A stretch of 22,366 nt of DNA, taken from the IMG/VR virus record IMGVR_UViG_3300037069_002972, positions 1 to 22,366 of that record; one strand, given 5' to 3'. Below the pieces are notes generated by a model that was not told where the DNA came from, made no database searches, and saw nothing but the letters and a program-made list of their open reading frames with translations. Shown one piece after another: positions 9,247 to 21,257 of this stretch (position 1 is the stretch's first letter; each line of letters starts with the position of its first letter). A program made the position numbers and the translations under genes. The DNA is from a virus.

Positions 9247-9327
9247 GGATCATCCGGGGCCAGCGGCCCGTCCCACACGATCAAGGGTGTTACACGCCAA
9301 CCGTCGCCCACTTCAAAACACCGGCTG

Positions 9328-9809: not shown

Positions 9810-10412
9810 ATGAAAATCAAAATCAAGTCGCGACTCGGAGCCGTGCTATTCGCGGCCGTGATCGCCAACGATACTGCGCCAACACTCCAAGTGCGGGAAG
9901 CGGTCAAAGCCGCCGTGGCGGCAAAGGCGGACCTGAGCGGGGCGGACCTGAGCGGGGCGTACCTGAGCGGGGCGGACCTGAGCGGGGCGTACCTGAGCGG
10001 GGCGGACCTGAGGAGGGCGGACCTGAGCGGGGCGGACCTGAGGAGGGCGTACCTGAGCGGGGCGTACCTGAGGGGGGCGGACCTGAGCGGGGCGGACCTG
10101 AGCGGGGCGGACCTGAGGAGGGCGTACCTGAGCGGGGCGGACCTGAGCGGGGCGGACCTGAGCGGAACCAAAGAGAGGCCCGAACTTGTGATCGCCTCCC
10201 TAGGCGGCAGGGCTTCCCGCAGCGACGGTTACGAATTCCTGATTTTCAATATGGAAAAAGGGGCTGCGATCATCCGCGCCGGCTGTCAGACGCGCACCAT
10301 TGCCGGCTACCGCCAGCATGTCGCCTCCGACTATCCTGACACGCCCAAGGCCAAGGAAACGCTGCGCATCCTGGCGTTTCTCGCGGCGCAGGCTAAAGCC
10401 GATCCGTGGTGA
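9810..10412 (+). CDS. Pentapeptide-repeat protein, 200 aa
   Basis: ATG 9810 follows GCGAGAGAGCCC. Residues 1-39 form a basic N-terminal segment with helix ([17 protein letters not shown], then [11 protein letters not shown]). Residues 40-119 are 16 pentapeptides A(D/Y)L(S/R)(G/R), predicting a right-handed beta-helix of about four turns. The C-terminal 80 residues ([12 protein letters not shown] to end) carry [28 protein letters not shown] and a closing helix. That matches the C-terminal part common in phage-encoded pentapeptide proteins (G..I..GC..GT...F...V). Some pentapeptide proteins inhibit gyrase; the function of this one is unknown. The near-identical 15-bp DNA units imply length variation by slippage. 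Confidence 0.85.
9927..10166 (+). repeat. 15-bp tandem repeat array coding pentapeptides
   Basis: Sixteen 15-base units, consensus GCGGACCTGAGCGGG with GCGTAC and CTGAGGAGG variants, show very little third-position divergence. The core GACCTGAGC is also the core of the 12-bp array at 1531-1830 when read on the same strand. Confidence 0.9.
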
Positions 10413-10511: not shown

Positions 10512-11537
10512 ATGTCTCACGAATTGGCGACACGCGCGGACGGCAAGAAGGCCATGGCTTATGTGGGCAAAACCCCGTGGCACGTCCTCGGCGAAGAGCT
10601 GAAGCCCGGCGCGCCCCTGGAAGTCTGGACCACGGCCGCCGGCCTAGATTGGGAAGCGCTGGTCACGCCGTCGCAATACGAATTCGGCGGCCAGCTCGTC
10701 ACCGACCACAACGCCTTCCACATGGTGCGTAGCGACACCGGCGCGTCGCTCTCGGTCATGTCCAAGAAGTACAAGCCGGTCCAGCCCGCCGAGGTCATGG
10801 GCTTCTTTCGGGATTTCATCCTCACCGATGAGCGGTTCCAACTGGAAACGGCCGGCGCGCTCAAGGGCGGGCGTGTTATCTGGGGGCTCGCCAAGTTCTC
10901 GGACCCCATGACCGTGGCCGGTGACGCCCACACGCCTTACGTGCTGCTCACCACGTCCTACAACGGGACCATGGCGACCACGGCGCAAGGAACCATGGTG
11001 CGGGTTGTCTGCAACAACACGCTCACGGCCAGCGTCTACGGCGGCGAGAAAGCCATGGTGAAGGTCCCGCACTACAAGGACTTCGGCAACGCCACGGTGA
11101 AGGCCGACGCGGTGGAGCGGCTGGGGCTCATCGTCACCGGATATGACCGTTACAAAGCGCTTGGCGAGGCGCTGGCGGGCGTCAAGCTGGCGGCCTTTCA
11201 GGTGGAAGGCCTTTTCAAGCGCCTGACCATCGACAAGGCCGCCAAGGGCGACACCGACAAGACGCCCACGTCCAAGTCCCGCAATCAGCTCGAAGCCTTG
11301 CTCTCCAGCTACCGCGACACGCTGGCGGAGGGCACGCAAGGGGGCACGGCGTGGGCGGTGCTCAACGGCGTGACTCGCTATGTCGACCACGCTCGCACCA
11401 CGCGGGACACGGCTGGCGAAGGAGCCGGCGGCGCGCGCATGGCTTCGGCGCTCCTTGGCTCCGGCGCTGGCCTCAAGCGCGAGGCCCTGGACGTGCTCGC
11501 CGACCTCGGCCATATCAAGCTGGCCAACGCGGCCTAG
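10512..11537 (+). CDS. DUF932 (phage/plasmid-like protein), 341 aa
   Basis: The start MSHELATRADGKKAM at 10512 follows GCGAGAGAGGATCACACA; an upstream in-frame start at 10476 lies inside the hairpin leader and is rejected. The protein has the DUF932/TIGR03299 plan: AYVGKTPWHVLGEEL near the start, then DWEALVTPSQYEFGG, ASLSVMSKKYKPVQPAEVMGFF, a GGRVIWGLAKF strand, then YVLLTTSYNGTMATTAQGT with RVVCNNTL, then a helical C-terminal half. Such proteins are common on phages, plasmids and ICEs; their biochemical role is not settled. The length is typical. It is the last gene of the rightward accessory operon and is followed by a terminator. Confidence 0.9.
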   Translation: MSHELATRADGKKAMAYVGKTPWHVLGEELKPGAPLEVWTTAAGLDWEALVTPSQYEFGGQLVTDHNAFHMVRSDTGASLSVMSKKYKPVQPAEVMGFFRDFILTDERFQLETAGALKGGRVIWGLAKFSDPMTVAGDAHTPYVLLTTSYNGTMATTAQGTMVRVVCNNTLTASVYGGEKAMVKVPHYKDFGNATVKADAVERLGLIVTGYDRYKALGEALAGVKLAAFQVEGLFKRLTIDKAAKGDTDKTPTSKSRNQLEALLSSYRDTLAEGTQGGTAWAVLNGVTRYVDHARTTRDTAGEGAGGARMASALLGSGAGLKREALDVLADLGHIKLANAA

Positions 11538-12410: not shown

Positions 12411-12746
12411 CTAGGCCGTGCGCTGACAGACCTTGCCGGCGTCATCGATGGAGAGGGTGATGGGCGGGAAGCGGTTGCGCATCTGATAGGTCCACGCGTC
12501 GCCCCAAGACCTGAAATCCTCCTGGCGAGAGTTCCAGAACTGATGGCCGGCAACGGAGCTGTCCTCGCGCCACCCGCATCGCCTATCGGCTCGCGCCTCT
12601 GCGCAATCCCCCATCATCGCCTCTAGGGAGGCGGGGTGAAGGTCGGAGATTTCCTTGCCGACGCTCTGAGCCGCCGCCGTGAGATAGCCAAGCTCAAACC
12701 CATTGAAGTCGGGCTCGGCTTCGGCGCGCGGAATGTGGCCGCTCAT
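12411..12746 (-). CDS. Hypothetical protein, 111 aa
   Basis: ATG 12746 overlaps the TGA of the zinc-finger gene upstream. The product starts MSGHIPRAEAEPDFNGFELG, has YLTAAAQSVGKEISDLHPAS, then CAEARADRRCGWREDSSVAG, a Trp-rich FWNSRQEDFRSWGDAWTYQM middle and a FPPITLSIDDAGKVCQRTA end. The four Cys are not arranged as a classic finger. Coupled expression with the zinc-finger protein suggests linked function. Family unknown. Confidence 0.66.
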   Translation of the reverse strand: MSGHIPRAEAEPDFNGFELGYLTAAAQSVGKEISDLHPASLEAMMGDCAEARADRRCGWREDSSVAGHQFWNSRQEDFRSWGDAWTYQMRNRFPPITLSIDDAGKVCQRTA

Positions 12747-13114
12747 AGGTCACACGCGCGCCAGCCGGCTTCCATCTTGGGCGTCAGGTACTCGGCAGCG
12801 CTCATGCGGCCGGCGGCCTTGTCCTCGGCCAGCCACTGGTCGGCCAGCGCGTACAGCTCACGGCGGGCGAAGGTGGCGACGTCAGAGGAGCCACGGCGGC
12901 CCTGGACGGTCGCCAAGAGAAGCTGTGTTGCGACCCGCCCACGCTTGGAGTCGCGATTGTGCCAAGCATCCTTGCAGTTGCCGGGACCCTTGACGGTGCA
13001 GAAGCGGGCTTCGCTCCCGCCGACGAAGGTAGCGGAGCACTCGGGGCACTTGTGTTCGACCAGCGCGCGGCCCGAGGGCTTGGCGGTATCTAGGGTGGTG
13101 GCGTCGTAGGCCAT
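12743..13114 (-). CDS. Putative zinc-finger protein, 123 aa
   Basis: The start MAYDATTLDTAKPSGRALV at 13114 follows GCGAGAGAGACAACCACC; an in-frame start at 13174 is rejected because it lies in the hairpin leader. Residues 23-52 hold KCPECSATFVGG, FCTVKGPGNCKDAWHNRD: C23, C26, C39, C47 and H52. This CPxC...FC...C..A.HNR.SKRG layout is that of small zinc ribbons in many phage and bacterial proteins. The C-terminal two thirds are helical (LALADQWLAEDK-like and AAGRMSAAEYLTPK). It probably binds one zinc; a nucleic-acid role is inference. First gene of the leftward unit. Confidence 0.75.
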   Translation of the reverse strand: MAYDATTLDTAKPSGRALVEHKCPECSATFVGGSEARFCTVKGPGNCKDAWHNRDSKRGRVATQLLLATVQGRRGSSDVATFARRELYALADQWLAEDKAAGRMSAAEYLTPKMEAGWRACDL

Positions 13115-13199: not shown

Positions 13200-13302
13200 T
13201 GTAACGCTCCTCCCCCCGATGTAACGCTAGATCGACCCTGTAACGCTCATCGTGTAACGCTAGGGCACGCCAAACCGGCCTGTAACGCTAGGATGTAACG
13301 CT
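13200..13302 (+). repeat. Six direct TGTAACGCT repeats before gene 13303
   Basis: TGTAACGCT starts at 13200, 13220, 13239, 13253, 13281 and 13294, all on the plus strand; the last runs into the ATG of gene 13303-13644. Three are followed by AG. TGTAACGC recurs singly at 13676 and 14086. The spacing (20, 19, 14, 28, 13) is irregular. This could be an operator cluster or replication iterons. Confidence 0.8.
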
Positions 13303-13644
13303 ATGACCAAGACGCCCCTCCCCACGATTGCCGACCTGCGGCGCTCTGAGCCCATGGCCGCTAAGAAGGCCTATCCCTACAGCTTCATGGAGGCCTACGA
13401 GGCGATTGGCACCCTCATGACCAAGATCGCCCGCTACGAGGCCTTGCTGCGCTACTACGGCATAGACCTTGCGGAAGTCGCCCCAGCGCGCCCCCAAGCC
13501 GCCACCCCGATCCCGTGCGACGAAGAGGACGTTCGCCCGGCTATCGCCTTCACCCCAGAACAAGAAGAAGCCGAACGCCTCCGCGCCCAAACCCGAGCCC
13601 GCGTCGCCAAGCACCGCGCCCAAACCAAGGAAGAGAAGGGGTAA
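13303..13644 (+). CDS. Hypothetical protein downstream of the TGTAACGCT array, 113 aa
   Basis: ATG 13303 overlaps the end of the last TGTAACGCT repeat; AGGA nine bases upstream is the likely ribosome site. The product starts MTKTPLPTIADLRRSEPMAA, has a KKAYPYSFMEAYEAIGTLMTK helix and IARYEALLRYYGID. An acidic, Pro-rich linker follows (PCDEEDVRPAIAF), then a basic coiled-coil-like C-terminus (EEAERLRAQTRARVAKHRAQ). The basic tail could contact DNA, and the position behind a repeat array suggests control or replication, but the fold is not recognised. Lone gene with no downstream partner. Confidence 0.66.
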   Translation: MTKTPLPTIADLRRSEPMAAKKAYPYSFMEAYEAIGTLMTKIARYEALLRYYGIDLAEVAPARPQAATPIPCDEEDVRPAIAFTPEQEEAERLRAQTRARVAKHRAQTKEEKG

Positions 13645-13931
13645 GAGCACTACCATAGAAAGGCGCGGAGCGCCCTGTAACGCCCCATCGAAGGCTTTTA
13701 TCCCATGCGCTCACTCACATAGCCAAAGAAGCGCTCAGAGACCCCACGGACCACGGCAGGCCGCCTAGCGCCCATGCAGGCGCAAGAGCATCACCCGACA
13801 ACGGCGAGCGGCGCGGCAGGGGAGAGGGCCGGCGCTCAGAGCTGGGGGCGGAGGTGAAGGCGAAACCGCCCCGCCGCCGCCCTCCTCACACGCGTATCCG
13901 GGGCCTGATTCGGCCTGCTCAAGGCGCTGCG

Positions 13932-13967
13932 CCGAGGGACATACAAGATGTTGTATGGGGGCCTCGG
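13932..13967. repeat. Nested inverted repeat
   Basis: CATACAA (13940-13946), loop GATG, TTGTATG (13951-13957) is a perfect 7-bp dyad, enclosed by CCGAGG (13932-13937) and CCTCGG (13962-13967). The A+T core in G+C-rich DNA suits a protein binding or recombination site for the serine recombinase or another regulator; this is inference. Confidence 0.6.
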
Positions 13968-14179
13968 TAAACGTCTGACGCTGTGTGGAGGCGTGCCACT
14001 AGGCCAGCCGGCCCCCTAGCTGTGTGCGGTGCGGCAGGGGGCCAGGGGCCATGGGTCTAGGCGGCAGGCGGCCAAACCGGGACCGTGTAACGCGCCTGGA
14101 GCCTCGGGACTCGAAGCCCATCCGTGTCAGAGACCCCCCTCCCCGCCCCCCCCAAGAAATTCCCCTATGTCCCTCGTGC

Positions 14180-14214
14180 TTGACATTCATCCGCTCTCTG
14201 GGCACTCATGTCTC
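14180..14214 (+). promoter_or_regulatory. Candidate promoter for the 14262-15547 cassette
   Basis: A consensus TTGACA at 14180-14185; the matching -10 at about 14203-14208 (CACTCA or ACTCAT) is poor. It would place the start near 14215, about 47 bases before the first gene of the cassette, which argues against an ORF starting at 14167 or 14208. Confidence 0.4.
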
Positions 14215-16855: not shown

Positions 16856-17169
16856 GCGCCTACCTGGAGGTAATGATCGAGGGGAACTGTCGGGCCTATC
16901 TGAAGGCCGATTCCCTGATGGGGATTATCACTTCCCCCGGCGCGTCCGGTGACACGGTGGCTACGCCCGACGAGCCCCTGTCCCTGATCCTTTCGGGCAA
17001 TACCCTACCGGGCGTGTATGGTATCAGTCCCAACCGACTGATGGTTCACGCGGCCGGCGCGAAAATGCTGCTGCGGGAGGAGGGGAAGCTGGCCGTGGTG
17101 GCCTACCTAGACTCCCACCAGGACTTCGAGAACCGCATCGCCCATCACTTGGAGAAGGGCGATGGTTAA
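16852..17169 (+). CDS. Small phage protein related in layout to its neighbour, 105 aa
   Basis: GTG 16852 overlaps the stop of the previous gene (GTGA). The product starts MSAYLEVMIEGNCRAYLKADSLMGIITS, similar in layout to the preceding protein (a strand, then 'ADxxxxI'). It continues EPLSLILSGNTLPGVYGISPNRLMVH, then AAGAKMLLREEGKLAVVAYLDSHQDFENRI to a helical end. The two may be old duplicates. TerL starts 8 bases inside its 3' end. Function unknown. Confidence 0.66.
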   Translation: MSAYLEVMIEGNCRAYLKADSLMGIITSPGASGDTVATPDEPLSLILSGNTLPGVYGISPNRLMVHAAGAKMLLREEGKLAVVAYLDSHQDFENRIAHHLEKGDG

Positions 17170-18988
17170 GCCGGTCAAGACGTGGCTCCCCGCGTTCCTG
17201 CGCTTCATCGAGATGGTCCGGATCACCTCGAAGGAGTCCGAGGGGCTGGTGCCGATTGTCCCCTACGAGGGCCAGAAGAGGTTCCTTCGGGAGGTGACCG
17301 AAGGCCTCAACGATGACATCCACCACTTCACGGTTCTGAAGTCTCGCCAGCTCGGCATCTCCACGATCCTGCTCGCCCTGGACATCTTCTGGCTCTACAT
17401 GCACGACGGCCTGCAGGGCGCGCTGATCACCGACTCGGCGACCAACCTGGAGACCTTCCGGCAGACCATCTCGGAGATGCTGGAGAGCCTTCCACCCCGC
17501 TACAGCGTCCCGATCCTGCGTCACAACCGCAACGGTCTGGTGCTCGCGAATGGCTCCAGGCTTCAGTACATGAGCGCCGGCAAGCAGAAGAATTCCGGTC
17601 TCGGCCGCTCCCGCGCCCTGAACTATGTCCACGCGACGGAGTGCTCTTCGTGGGGCGATCAGAAGGGTCTCGACTCCTTGCGTCACGCCCTGGCCGAGAT
17701 CAACCCGTCGCGCCTGTACATCTTCGAGTCCACCGCCCTGGGCTACAACATCTTCGAGAACATGTGGCGCGACGCCAAGGCGGACCCGCGCCAAAAGGCG
17801 ATCTTCATCGGCTGGTGGTCCAAGGATACCCAGCGCGTTGAGGCCGGCTCTATCGAGTACGAAACTTTCTGGGCGACCAGTCCACACCTCACCGAGGAAG
17901 AGGCGGAGGTCGAGGAGCGGGTGCTCAAGGAGTATGGCTGGCAGATCACGCCGGAGCAGTGGGCGTGGTATCGCTACCGTCTGTCCCTGGCCCCCGATGA
18001 GGCCTCGTTCCTGGAGGAGCAGCCCTCCACGGAAGAAGAGGCCTTCCAGGCGACCGGCAACGGCTTCTTCAACCTCAAGAAGGTGAAGGTGGACCTGGAT
18101 TTCATCGCCCGTGGCGGCGTGGGCTATCGCGGTTACCAGTACACGCTCGGCAAGAGCTTCCTGAAGATGAAGACCGAGGAGACGCGCATCCCGGACGATG
18201 TGGACCTTCGGGTTTGGGAAGACCCCGTGAAGGACGCCAAGTATGTGATCGGCGTGGACCCAGCCTACGGAGCCGACGAAGACCGGGACCGCTCCACCAT
18301 CGAGGTCTGGCGGTGCTACTCTGACAAGATGGTCCAGGTGGCGGAGTACAACACTCCGATCCCGAACACCCGTCAGGTGGCCTGGGTGATGGCGCACCTC
18401 GCCGGCTGCTACCGAGACTGCATGATCAATCTGGAGATCACCGGACCGGGCGGCGAGGTGATGAACGAGCTGGACAATCTGCGTATGCAGATTCAGTACG
18501 GCCAGCTCCGTGAACTGGCCCCCAGTCTCAACCCAGGATGGGCGCTAGATCAGGCGCGCTGGTATCTCTACCACCGCCCCGACACCATGGGCACGGGATA
18601 CGCCTACGGGTTCAAGACCGGCTACGAGTCCAAGCAGCGCATCCTCAACCGCATGAGGGATGAGTACGAGGGTGAGAACCTGATCGTCCGCTCGGTGCTG
18701 CTGCTGGACGAGATGACTCACTTCGTCCAGGACGGCGGAAAGCTCCATGCCTCGGGCCGGTACAAGGATGACCGGGTGATGGCGACCGCCCTGGCCAACT
18801 TCGCGTGGTCTGAGTGGGTGCGCGCCGGGATGATGATCCAAGGGCGCACCTTTGAGACCGAGCAGAAGAAGGATCAGGAGAAATCCCTAAAGGGCGGCAC
18901 GGTAATTTCCTGGATTGTGCCTTTGCACTTTGAGAACGCGGCCAAGCAGCGCGCCGAGGCCGATCTGCAGCGCTACTTGGAGACCTGA
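17162..18988 (+). CDS. terL: Terminase large subunit, 608 aa
   Basis: The packaging motor ATPase and nuclease. Residues 60-68 (KSRQLGIST) are the Walker A variant with the invariant K replaced by an R-containing form usual in terminases. Residues 152-159 (LNYVHATE) hold the Walker B with E159; ESTALGYN (188-195) is the coupling motif. In the nuclease half, VIGVDPAYGAD (363-372) gives D365, INLEITGPGGE (423-431) gives E425, and YKDDRVMATAL (534-543) gives the late Asp. Length is typical. ATG 17162 lies 8 bases inside the previous gene. The packaging type (cos or pac) cannot be told from this alone. Confidence 0.95.
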   Translation: MVKPVKTWLPAFLRFIEMVRITSKESEGLVPIVPYEGQKRFLREVTEGLNDDIHHFTVLKSRQLGISTILLALDIFWLYMHDGLQGALITDSATNLETFRQTISEMLESLPPRYSVPILRHNRNGLVLANGSRLQYMSAGKQKNSGLGRSRALNYVHATECSSWGDQKGLDSLRHALAEINPSRLYIFESTALGYNIFENMWRDAKADPRQKAIFIGWWSKDTQRVEAGSIEYETFWATSPHLTEEEAEVEERVLKEYGWQITPEQWAWYRYRLSLAPDEASFLEEQPSTEEEAFQATGNGFFNLKKVKVDLDFIARGGVGYRGYQYTLGKSFLKMKTEETRIPDDVDLRVWEDPVKDAKYVIGVDPAYGADEDRDRSTIEVWRCYSDKMVQVAEYNTPIPNTRQVAWVMAHLAGCYRDCMINLEITGPGGEVMNELDNLRMQIQYGQLRELAPSLNPGWALDQARWYLYHRPDTMGTGYAYGFKTGYESKQRILNRMRDEYEGENLIVRSVLLLDEMTHFVQDGGKLHASGRYKDDRVMATALANFAWSEWVRAGMMIQGRTFETEQKKDQEKSLKGGTVISWIVPLHFENAAKQRAEADLQRYLET

Positions 18989-19565: not shown

Positions 19566-21257
19566 ATGAAGATTCCCAAGTCTGGGCTAGCCGACTGGTC
19601 CAAGGAGATCATTGACGAGTGCATGGTGAGCCGGGAAACCCGGATCGACACCTACCGCCGGTGGAAGAATATCTTCTACACAGGCTCGGATAACGGCGTG
19701 CCGTCCAAGCGCAACCGCTGCTTCAGCCACGTGGACAAGCTCTCCAGCTACCTGTTCAGTCCAGCCGATGTCTTCTTCAACGTGGAGTTCGATGACGACA
19801 GCCAGGGCAAGTGGACGTCCATGGCCGAGCGCGCGTCCAACTACCTAAACCGCCAGTTCTCCCGGCGCGGGTGCGACGTAGTGTTCTCTCAGGCCAACGA
19901 GTGGTCACTAGTGAAGGGAGCGACGCTGGTCAAGATGGTCTGGAGCCGAGGCGGATTCGAACCCTGGGTGATCCAGCCGGAGTTCTTCGGCGTTCTGCGC
20001 GAGGACATCGAAGACCTGGACCGCCAGGACGCGTTCGTTCACACCTTCTACCAGACGCCGACCCAGTTCCGCCGGCTCCTGGGTAACCATCCGGACAAGA
20101 CCCGGATCATGGCCGAAGTCGGGGCCTCCTTCGCCGTGCGGGCCGCCGAAGACAATGAAACCGGATTCCGGGACATCTCGTCTGGCGGAGGATTCCCGCT
20201 GGCGGTGATCGGAGTGCCGGGCGTCACCACGCCATCCACCCAGACTTTCGGAAACGTGGACTGGACCACCGCTCAAGAGGGGGCGATGCTGGCTCCCGAT
20301 GTCATCTCCAAGCTGATCCAGGTCTACGATCTGTGGGTCTGGAACGACGACCTGGAAGATTGGAGCACGATCCGCTACGTCGAGCCGGGTGTGATCATTG
20401 AAGGCAAGTACCAGCTCCGGAATCTGTCGGACATCCCGAAGGAGCATCCCTTCGTAAAGGTCTGCAGCAATACGGTTCCTGGGTATTTCTGGGGCCGCTC
20501 AGAGATCGCCAACGTCTGGCAGAACCAGCGCCTGCTGACCAACCGCCTCAACAACGCCGACCGCATCTACAACCAGCAGGCTCAGCCGGCCCGATCCGTC
20601 ATCGGCGGCACGGGCATCACCGATGAAAAGGTGAGAGCCCTGCTGTCTCCGGCCGGCGTGCTCACCGATCCGAGCCCCACCGCCAAGGTGGAGACCTACA
20701 AGCCGGACATGCCCCAGGGATTCATGGACTTCATCAAGTATCTGGACGATGCCTTTGATGAGGTTGCCGGATTCACGGCCATCACGTCTGGCCAGGGCGA
20801 GCCGGGAGTGCGCGCCGGCACCCACGCCAACACGCTGCTGCGCACCTCCACGCCCAGGCTTCGCGACCGGGCGCTTCTGGTCGAGAAGCAGGCGGCGGCT
20901 TTCGGGGGAATCTGCCTCAAGATGCTGCGGGCAAAGGATGCCTCGGTGCTGATCACGGAGGATGGCCAGCAGTTCCTTCTCGATCAGCTCCCGGAGGATG
21001 CTTCTGTCGTGGTGGATAGCCACACCTCATCGCCTGCCTTCTCTGGGGACAACGAGAACAAGCTGTTCGCTCTCTCGAAGGTCGGGGCCATCGACAATGA
21101 GTCTCTGCTGGAGGGCACCCACCCGCCTCGTCAGGAGCAGTTGATCGCCCGTCTGCGCAAGAAAGAGAAGGCTCAGGCTGCTCAAATGGAAGAGCTGAAG
21201 AAGACCGATCCTACCCAGTGGGCCAAGGCGATTGGTGGCGGCGGCCGTCACCGCTGA
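19566..21257 (+). CDS. Portal protein, 563 aa
   Basis: ATG 19566 follows GGGGGGCTCA. The protein forms the ring at the capsid vertex through which DNA is packed and to which the tail attaches. Consistent features: the N-terminal WKNIFYTGSDNG region with NRCFSHVDKLSSYLFSPADVFF and DDDSQGKWT, a RASNYLNRQFSRRGCD helix, and a VIQPEFFGVLREDIEDLDRQDAF segment with the binding-loop area TFYQTPTQFRRLL. A NRLNNADRIYNQQAQPARSVIGG region and KVETYKPDMPQGFMDFIKYLDDAFDEVAGFTAITSGQGEPGVRAGTHANTLL follow; that late stretch is typical of podovirus-like and related portals. The position right after TerL fits. I cannot say which morphology. Confidence 0.9.
   Translation: MKIPKSGLADWSKEIIDECMVSRETRIDTYRRWKNIFYTGSDNGVPSKRNRCFSHVDKLSSYLFSPADVFFNVEFDDDSQGKWTSMAERASNYLNRQFSRRGCDVVFSQANEWSLVKGATLVKMVWSRGGFEPWVIQPEFFGVLREDIEDLDRQDAFVHTFYQTPTQFRRLLGNHPDKTRIMAEVGASFAVRAAEDNETGFRDISSGGGFPLAVIGVPGVTTPSTQTFGNVDWTTAQEGAMLAPDVISKLIQVYDLWVWNDDLEDWSTIRYVEPGVIIEGKYQLRNLSDIPKEHPFVKVCSNTVPGYFWGRSEIANVWQNQRLLTNRLNNADRIYNQQAQPARSVIGGTGITDEKVRALLSPAGVLTDPSPTAKVETYKPDMPQGFMDFIKYLDDAFDEVAGFTAITSGQGEPGVRAGTHANTLLRTSTPRLRDRALLVEKQAAAFGGICLKMLRAKDASVLITEDGQQFLLDQLPEDASVVVDSHTSSPAFSGDNENKLFALSKVGAIDNESLLEGTHPPRQEQLIARLRKKEKAQAAQMEELKKTDPTQWAKAIGGGGRHR

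Follow-up and report, generated by a model that had tools for sequence, protein, structure and literature searches.

The window analysed here, a stretch of 22,366 nucleotides, belongs to a 22-kb virus record that is probably a fragment. Immediately ahead of the gene at position 13303 it carries an array of six identical 9-base words. We conclude from sequence comparisons that this array quite probably serves as a cluster of docking sites for the protein encoded by gene 13303, which would read them with a basic helix at its C-terminus. The gene 13303 protein is the most likely reader because helix and box are associated across phages in both directions and because the class of the helix covaries with the class of the box. 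A preliminary description of the DNA had named binding sites of this protein among several possible functions of the array, and at the sequence level this proposal is strongly supported.

An exact-match scan of the window located six copies of TGTAACGCT, all on the + strand, with starts at 13200, 13220, 13239, 13253, 13281, and 13294. This bears out the earlier observation of six exact copies in one direction between 13200 and 13302. The claim that the array lies far beyond chance also held: when the bases of the window were shuffled 100 times, no 9-mer exceeded three copies per 103 bp. With one mismatch to TGTAACGCT allowed, the window contained 10 matches versus 2.1 expected, a number reached in none of 100 shuffles. 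The single copies previously reported at 13676 and 14086 are indeed present, but as TGTAACGCC and TGTAACGCG, which match at eight of nine bases and are not exact; the common core is therefore TGTAACGC. This core is found in 8/8 boxes, on one strand (+) within 13200-14094, and is absent from the rest of the window. The last copy of the array, described as overlapping the ATG of gene 13303, abuts it. GTGTTAC at 9287 had been taken for a related inverted copy; the inverted word is CGTTACA, which occurs once, at 11148. The features of the region are as follows.

12743-13114, − strand: divergent gene, 123 aa, weak matches to PHROGs 20494/8162
13200-13208, + strand: box 1, TGTAACGCT, exact match
13220-13228, + strand: box 2, TGTAACGCT, exact match
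13239-13247, + strand: box 3, TGTAACGCT, exact match
13253-13261, + strand: box 4, TGTAACGCT, exact match
13281-13289, + strand: box 5, TGTAACGCT, exact match
13290-13293: AGGA, possible ribosome site, between boxes 5 and 6
13294-13302, + strand: box 6, TGTAACGCT, exact match, abuts the ATG of gene 13303
13303-13644, + strand: gene 13303, proposed reader protein, 113 aa
13591-13617, + strand: codons of the recognition-helix core, T97-R98-A99-R100-V101-A102-K103-H104-R105
13676-13684, + strand: box 7, TGTAACGCC, 8/9 match, 31 bp past the stop codon of gene 13303
14086-14094, + strand: box 8, TGTAACGCG, 8/9 match, within the non-coding stretch 13645-14207, 441 bp beyond gene 13303

The six-box array occupies the 188-bp gap between two divergent genes (− strand start at 13114; + strand gene 13303). 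The distances from box start to box start are uneven (20, 19, 14, 28, 13), and helical phasing of the six boxes was not significant (R 0.69, p 0.11). The boxes are direct repeats and lack the palindromic symmetry of an XRE operator. Single-strand folding of the array was no better than that of shuffles, an Rfam search gave no match, and no sigma-70-like promoter was found in the array region.

Searches of viral contigs, phages, plasmids, Pfam, and PDB revealed no convincing relative of the whole gene 13303 protein, and PHROGs gave one weak match (E 0.03). The protein has no Pfam match and no winged-helix domain (PF09681), replication-family, or bZIP assignment. Its C-terminus, RLRAQTRARVAKHRAQTKEEKG, carries the basic helix T97-x-x-R100-V101-x-x-H104-R105 (QTRARVAKHR). 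AF2 predicted a helix at residues 85-112 with a pLDDT of about 85-94, in a model from a single sequence with no alignment (pTM 0.32). At the background rate, T..RV..[HYF]R is expected in a 113-aa protein with a probability of ~0.0003. Gene 13303 has no detectable homologue, and so about 10 residues carry the entire helix match.

The window further encodes a large terminase (17162-18985), a portal protein (19566-21254), a serine recombinase (14828), an XRE protein (14444; Pfam HTH_3), and a DUF932 gene (10476). In those of its proteins that were scanned, neither a replication gene nor a small terminase could be recognised. A DNA-level search with the record found no named relative. Two window proteins are highly repetitive, one encoded at 843-2066 (−) and the other at about 9900-10412 (+), the latter with pentapeptide-type repeats. 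The non-coding stretch 13645-14207 also holds a perfect inverted repeat, CATACAAgatgTTGTATG, at 13940-13957, which may serve the XRE protein as its operator.

The starting scan covered viral contigs with three TGTAACGC words close together, the loci being the matches listed. Many of the clusters among these matches are unevenly spaced and lie in intergenic regions or inside genes. The cluster genes recurrently encode a short basic helix, and the residues NVT, CNA, or ALQ that come after it represent one box read in different frames. For a DNA-to-protein test, loci were selected by TGTAACG words alone, again among the matches listed. In these matches, R-V-x-x-[HYF]-R had 54 occurrences next to box clusters, against 65 in the remaining sequence, which is nine times as long; the resulting 7.6-fold enrichment near clusters has a p-value of 1.5e-23 that, like all p-values of the association, is descriptive because related sequences are not independent. 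When other residues were placed at the V position, E alone showed an enrichment among the matches listed, and this was marginal (p 0.04). The motif with T three residues before R was found 28 times near clusters and 4 times far from them in the same matches, and reversed and permuted motif controls were far weaker or absent. Helices or gene ends that were identical entered the counts only once.

For the protein-to-DNA test, viral contigs were selected by the peptide QTRxRVAKHR alone, which gave 42 distinct helices. TGTAACG occurred within 450 nt at least once in 39/42 and at least twice in 29/42 of them. Its density was 2.50 per kb near these helices versus 0.071 elsewhere, that is, 35 times background, and an unbiased count of 7-mers in their vicinity placed GTAACG-containing words as the most enriched. 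One contig (L468) combines a helix identical to that of gene 13303, QTRARVAKHR, with four boxes. Where a gene contains at least two internal boxes, these make use of at least two reading frames or orientations in 27 of 32 cases, which argues for constraint on the boxes at the DNA level; all five open frame classes are represented. A lambda-N-like, RNA-binding reading of the helix was rejected, as boxes occur in both orientations. The word is also found in bacterial contigs, several of them labelled Bacteroidota (L202, L212, L221, L186, L189, L162), as head-to-tail TGTAACGCT(T) words spaced 8-10 bp apart, a pattern that differs from the phage arrays. A contig of Acinetobacter variabilis (L147) holds six TGTAACGC words at a regular, iteron-like spacing of 20-22 bp outside any obvious gene.

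Covariation of helix and box was analysed with PF09681 organizers from bacterial genomes, selected by protein family; phrog_2509, whose Enterobacterales matches mostly cover the C-terminal part only, was left out. Organizers with a T..RV..[HYF]R helix were accompanied by TGTAACG in 6/10 cases, and three of the four T/V helices without boxes downstream are nearly identical. GTGACG was present in 4/4 organizers with N..RN..YR or, in one case, S..RS..YR, and TGTCCG in 11/12 with E..RK..YR. Non-cognate words appeared in these three main helix classes as single isolated copies at most. The organizers with non-V helices (L353, L354, L355, L359; L361-L367, L369, L370, L373, L382) have other boxes just after the helix, namely GTGACG with N or S and TGTCCG with K. 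Twelve named phages agree on the whole: SAC, SM1, A500, TL-2011b, and phiEf11 carry TGTAACG in the initiator gene, and named phages with altered helices have no TGTAACG there. The initiators of CP2 (L339), PAN70 (L345), and VW-6S (L348) contain RV..HK, and their genes hold several GTAAC/GTTAC words and no TGTAACG, perhaps a further variant of the helix-to-box relation.

The nearest relatives of the window (L440 and L441; portal 59% identical) have neither TGTAACG nor a T..RV..[HYF]R helix. In both, the recombinase is preceded by a small gene whose product ends in a basic helix of another kind (SREAMRRLRASRK); this product shows no BLASTP similarity to the gene 13303 protein and is not alignable with it. 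Their own repeats are weak candidates only, e.g., GCCGACC. This pattern fits a joint change of helix and box and provides no conserved orthologue. The nearest phages by terminase (MW202753, MW202825, and Hydrogenobaculum phage 1) have no array. The large terminase of L441 (6580-9420, 946 aa) has an apparent intein-like insert that starts with CLDLETPLP and ends near PTHN.

With the phage replisome organizers (Pfam PF09681, Phage_rep_org_N; PHROGs 2509, 4880, and 9474), the window shares the helix T..RV..[HYF]R and nearby TGTAACG boxes. These organizers have an N-terminal winged helix and usually a C-terminal region, whereas gene 13303 has neither by sequence; their boxes lie inside or after the gene, whereas those of gene 13303 lie upstream. 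An AF2 model of an organizer displayed a winged helix and a protruding helix at 106-129, and a PDB fold search with this model returned only CRP/FNR-like winged helices at E about 3e-3 or worse. Small proteins on the terminase side (L318, L003, L281, L118, and others) resemble gene 13303 in that they lack the winged helix, show the same helix pattern, and have boxes inside the gene or upstream of it. Their genes abut or flank those of terminase subunits, whereas gene 13303 is 3.9 kb away from the large terminase, and no sequence similarity to gene 13303 was noted except in the helix.

What the array does may be read in several ways. An iteron-type replication origin, with the gene 13303 protein as a minimal initiator or an origin-binding accessory protein, can be put forward tentatively. 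The majority of proteins with the helix belong to the replisome organizers or replication initiators (Pfam PF09681; PHROGs 2509, 4880, 9474), whose boxes lie within or directly behind their own gene, much as the lambda origin lies in gene O. The window has several direct repeats, as iterons do (six exact copies), at the point where transcription diverges. The spacing of these repeats, however, lacks the regularity and helical phasing of iterons. Moreover, gene 13303 matches no winged-helix or replication family, no recognised initiator family is adjacent, and no replication gene was recognised in the scan of the window proteins. The region from 13.0 to 14.5 kb, of about 65% GC, has no clear AT-rich element or GC-skew turn, in a record that may be a fragment. 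A pure autoregulatory operator, at which the protein would control nothing but the divergent gene and the promoter of gene 13303, is possible but rather unlikely. In its favour, the six boxes take up the 188-bp space between the divergent genes and extend to the start codon; on the other hand, relatives have boxes inside or after genes, at positions unsuited to promoter control, two boxes of the window lie 31 and 441 bp beyond gene 13303, and the array lacks a recognisable sigma-70-like promoter. We consider it unlikely that the array belongs to the packaging module, with boxes that mark or adjoin a pac/cos site and a helix protein that guides the terminase. The large terminase gene (17162) begins 3.9 kb downstream of the array, with the recombinase and other genes in between, and no small terminase was recognised, so that the terminase adjacency of a pac/cos site is missing. 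Even so, helix proteins without a winged helix adjoin terminase genes in eight loci with a terminase-typed neighbour (L318, L003, L281, L083, L252, L261, L118, L273); TGTAACG boxes lie inside or close to the genes of these small proteins, which may form a packaging-site system, and L118, with six boxes upstream of the helix gene, has a window-like layout.

That the array serves as an operator for the XRE-family regulator (gene 14444, 1.1 kb downstream of the array) had been suggested in the preliminary description as well. This reading found no support and is very improbable: the boxes are direct repeats of a word without palindromic symmetry, the perfect palindrome at 13940-13957 looks more like the usual XRE site, and it is the gene 13303 protein, rather than the XRE protein, that carries the helix paired with the box word across phages. 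Hardly credible at all is a chance or low-complexity repeat with no function. TGTAACG does arise in tail-fibre-like genes also from coding repeats, e.g., SVTPSVTP, but the array of the window is non-coding, irregularly spaced, and has the cognate helix next door.

The basic region of eukaryotic bZIP proteins (GCN4, Pap1, C/EBP, Skn-1) follows the spacing N/T-x-x-[A/R]-x-x-x-[S/F/Y/H]-R-x-[R/K]. The spacing of the phage helix, N/T-x-x-R-x-x-x-[YHF]-R-x-[RK], appears to fit it. On the DNA side, GTAAC resembles the C/EBP/PAR half-site and TGACG the CREB half-site. In contrast to bZIP proteins, the helix of gene 13303 has T for N at the first position, and its boxes are non-palindromic. The protein ends eight residues after R105 and has no leucine zipper. 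Because of the N-to-T exchange and the missing zipper, the parallel to bZIP is one of spacing, not of family. Thus, gene 13303 is not a bZIP member, and a bZIP-like reading mode is nevertheless plausible; for common descent of the phage helix and bZIP there is no evidence. As with the lambda O iterons in gene O and the RepA_N iterons, the direct repeats of the window lie next to or around the gene of their presumed reader. RepA_N iterons are direct repeats read by an initiator encoded nearby (PLE RepA, PMC7145576). The lambda O and RepA_N systems differ in fold and in their longer and more regular iterons, whereas the reading element here appears to be one added helix. For ORF80, another protein of a prokaryotic mobile element (a Sulfolobus plasmid), bZIP-like DNA binding has been reported (Lipps 2001, as cited in PMC4234260), and we liken it to the phage proteins by the account in that citation.

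According to our model of the array as docking sites, the gene 13303 protein would read TGTAACGC via its C-terminal T-x-x-R-V-x-x-H-R helix and, since there is no leucine zipper, would read each box as a single non-palindromic site. Bound to the six boxes, which take up the divergent control region as far as the start codon, it should also repress its own gene. Such autoregulation probably follows from the geometry if the protein binds. As the helix-and-box pair recurs in replication initiators and beside terminases, the array most likely has a further role as a site of DNA transactions, either a replication origin or a packaging site. Given binding, an origin would be the foremost single role, without reaching even chances; an operator function only would come next, and packaging last. 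On a broader scale, we lean slightly towards the view that phages share a plug-in helix, with bZIP-like spacing and no zipper, on different bodies, i.e., winged-helix initiators, zinc-ribbon or other small terminase-side proteins, and the orphan gene 13303. A one-position code would link V to TGTAACG, N or S to GTGACG, and K to TGTCCG. The boxes would often lie inside the helix protein's own gene, and the window would be a case with boxes outside the gene, in the control region.

Searches of the open-access literature for the word, for organizers together with bZIP, and for Phage_rep_org_N found no description of this helix-and-box module. Origins within initiator genes and arrays ahead of autoregulated genes are already known; the shared helix, the helix-to-box code, and the use in two phage modules appear to be new. 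If the model is true, about ten residues of a single protein would suffice to predict where many uncharacterised phages have their origin or control sites, and box specificity would become approachable residue by residue. It would also mean that bZIP-like DNA reading arose independently in phages, and that one reading device serves replication and packaging modules alike.
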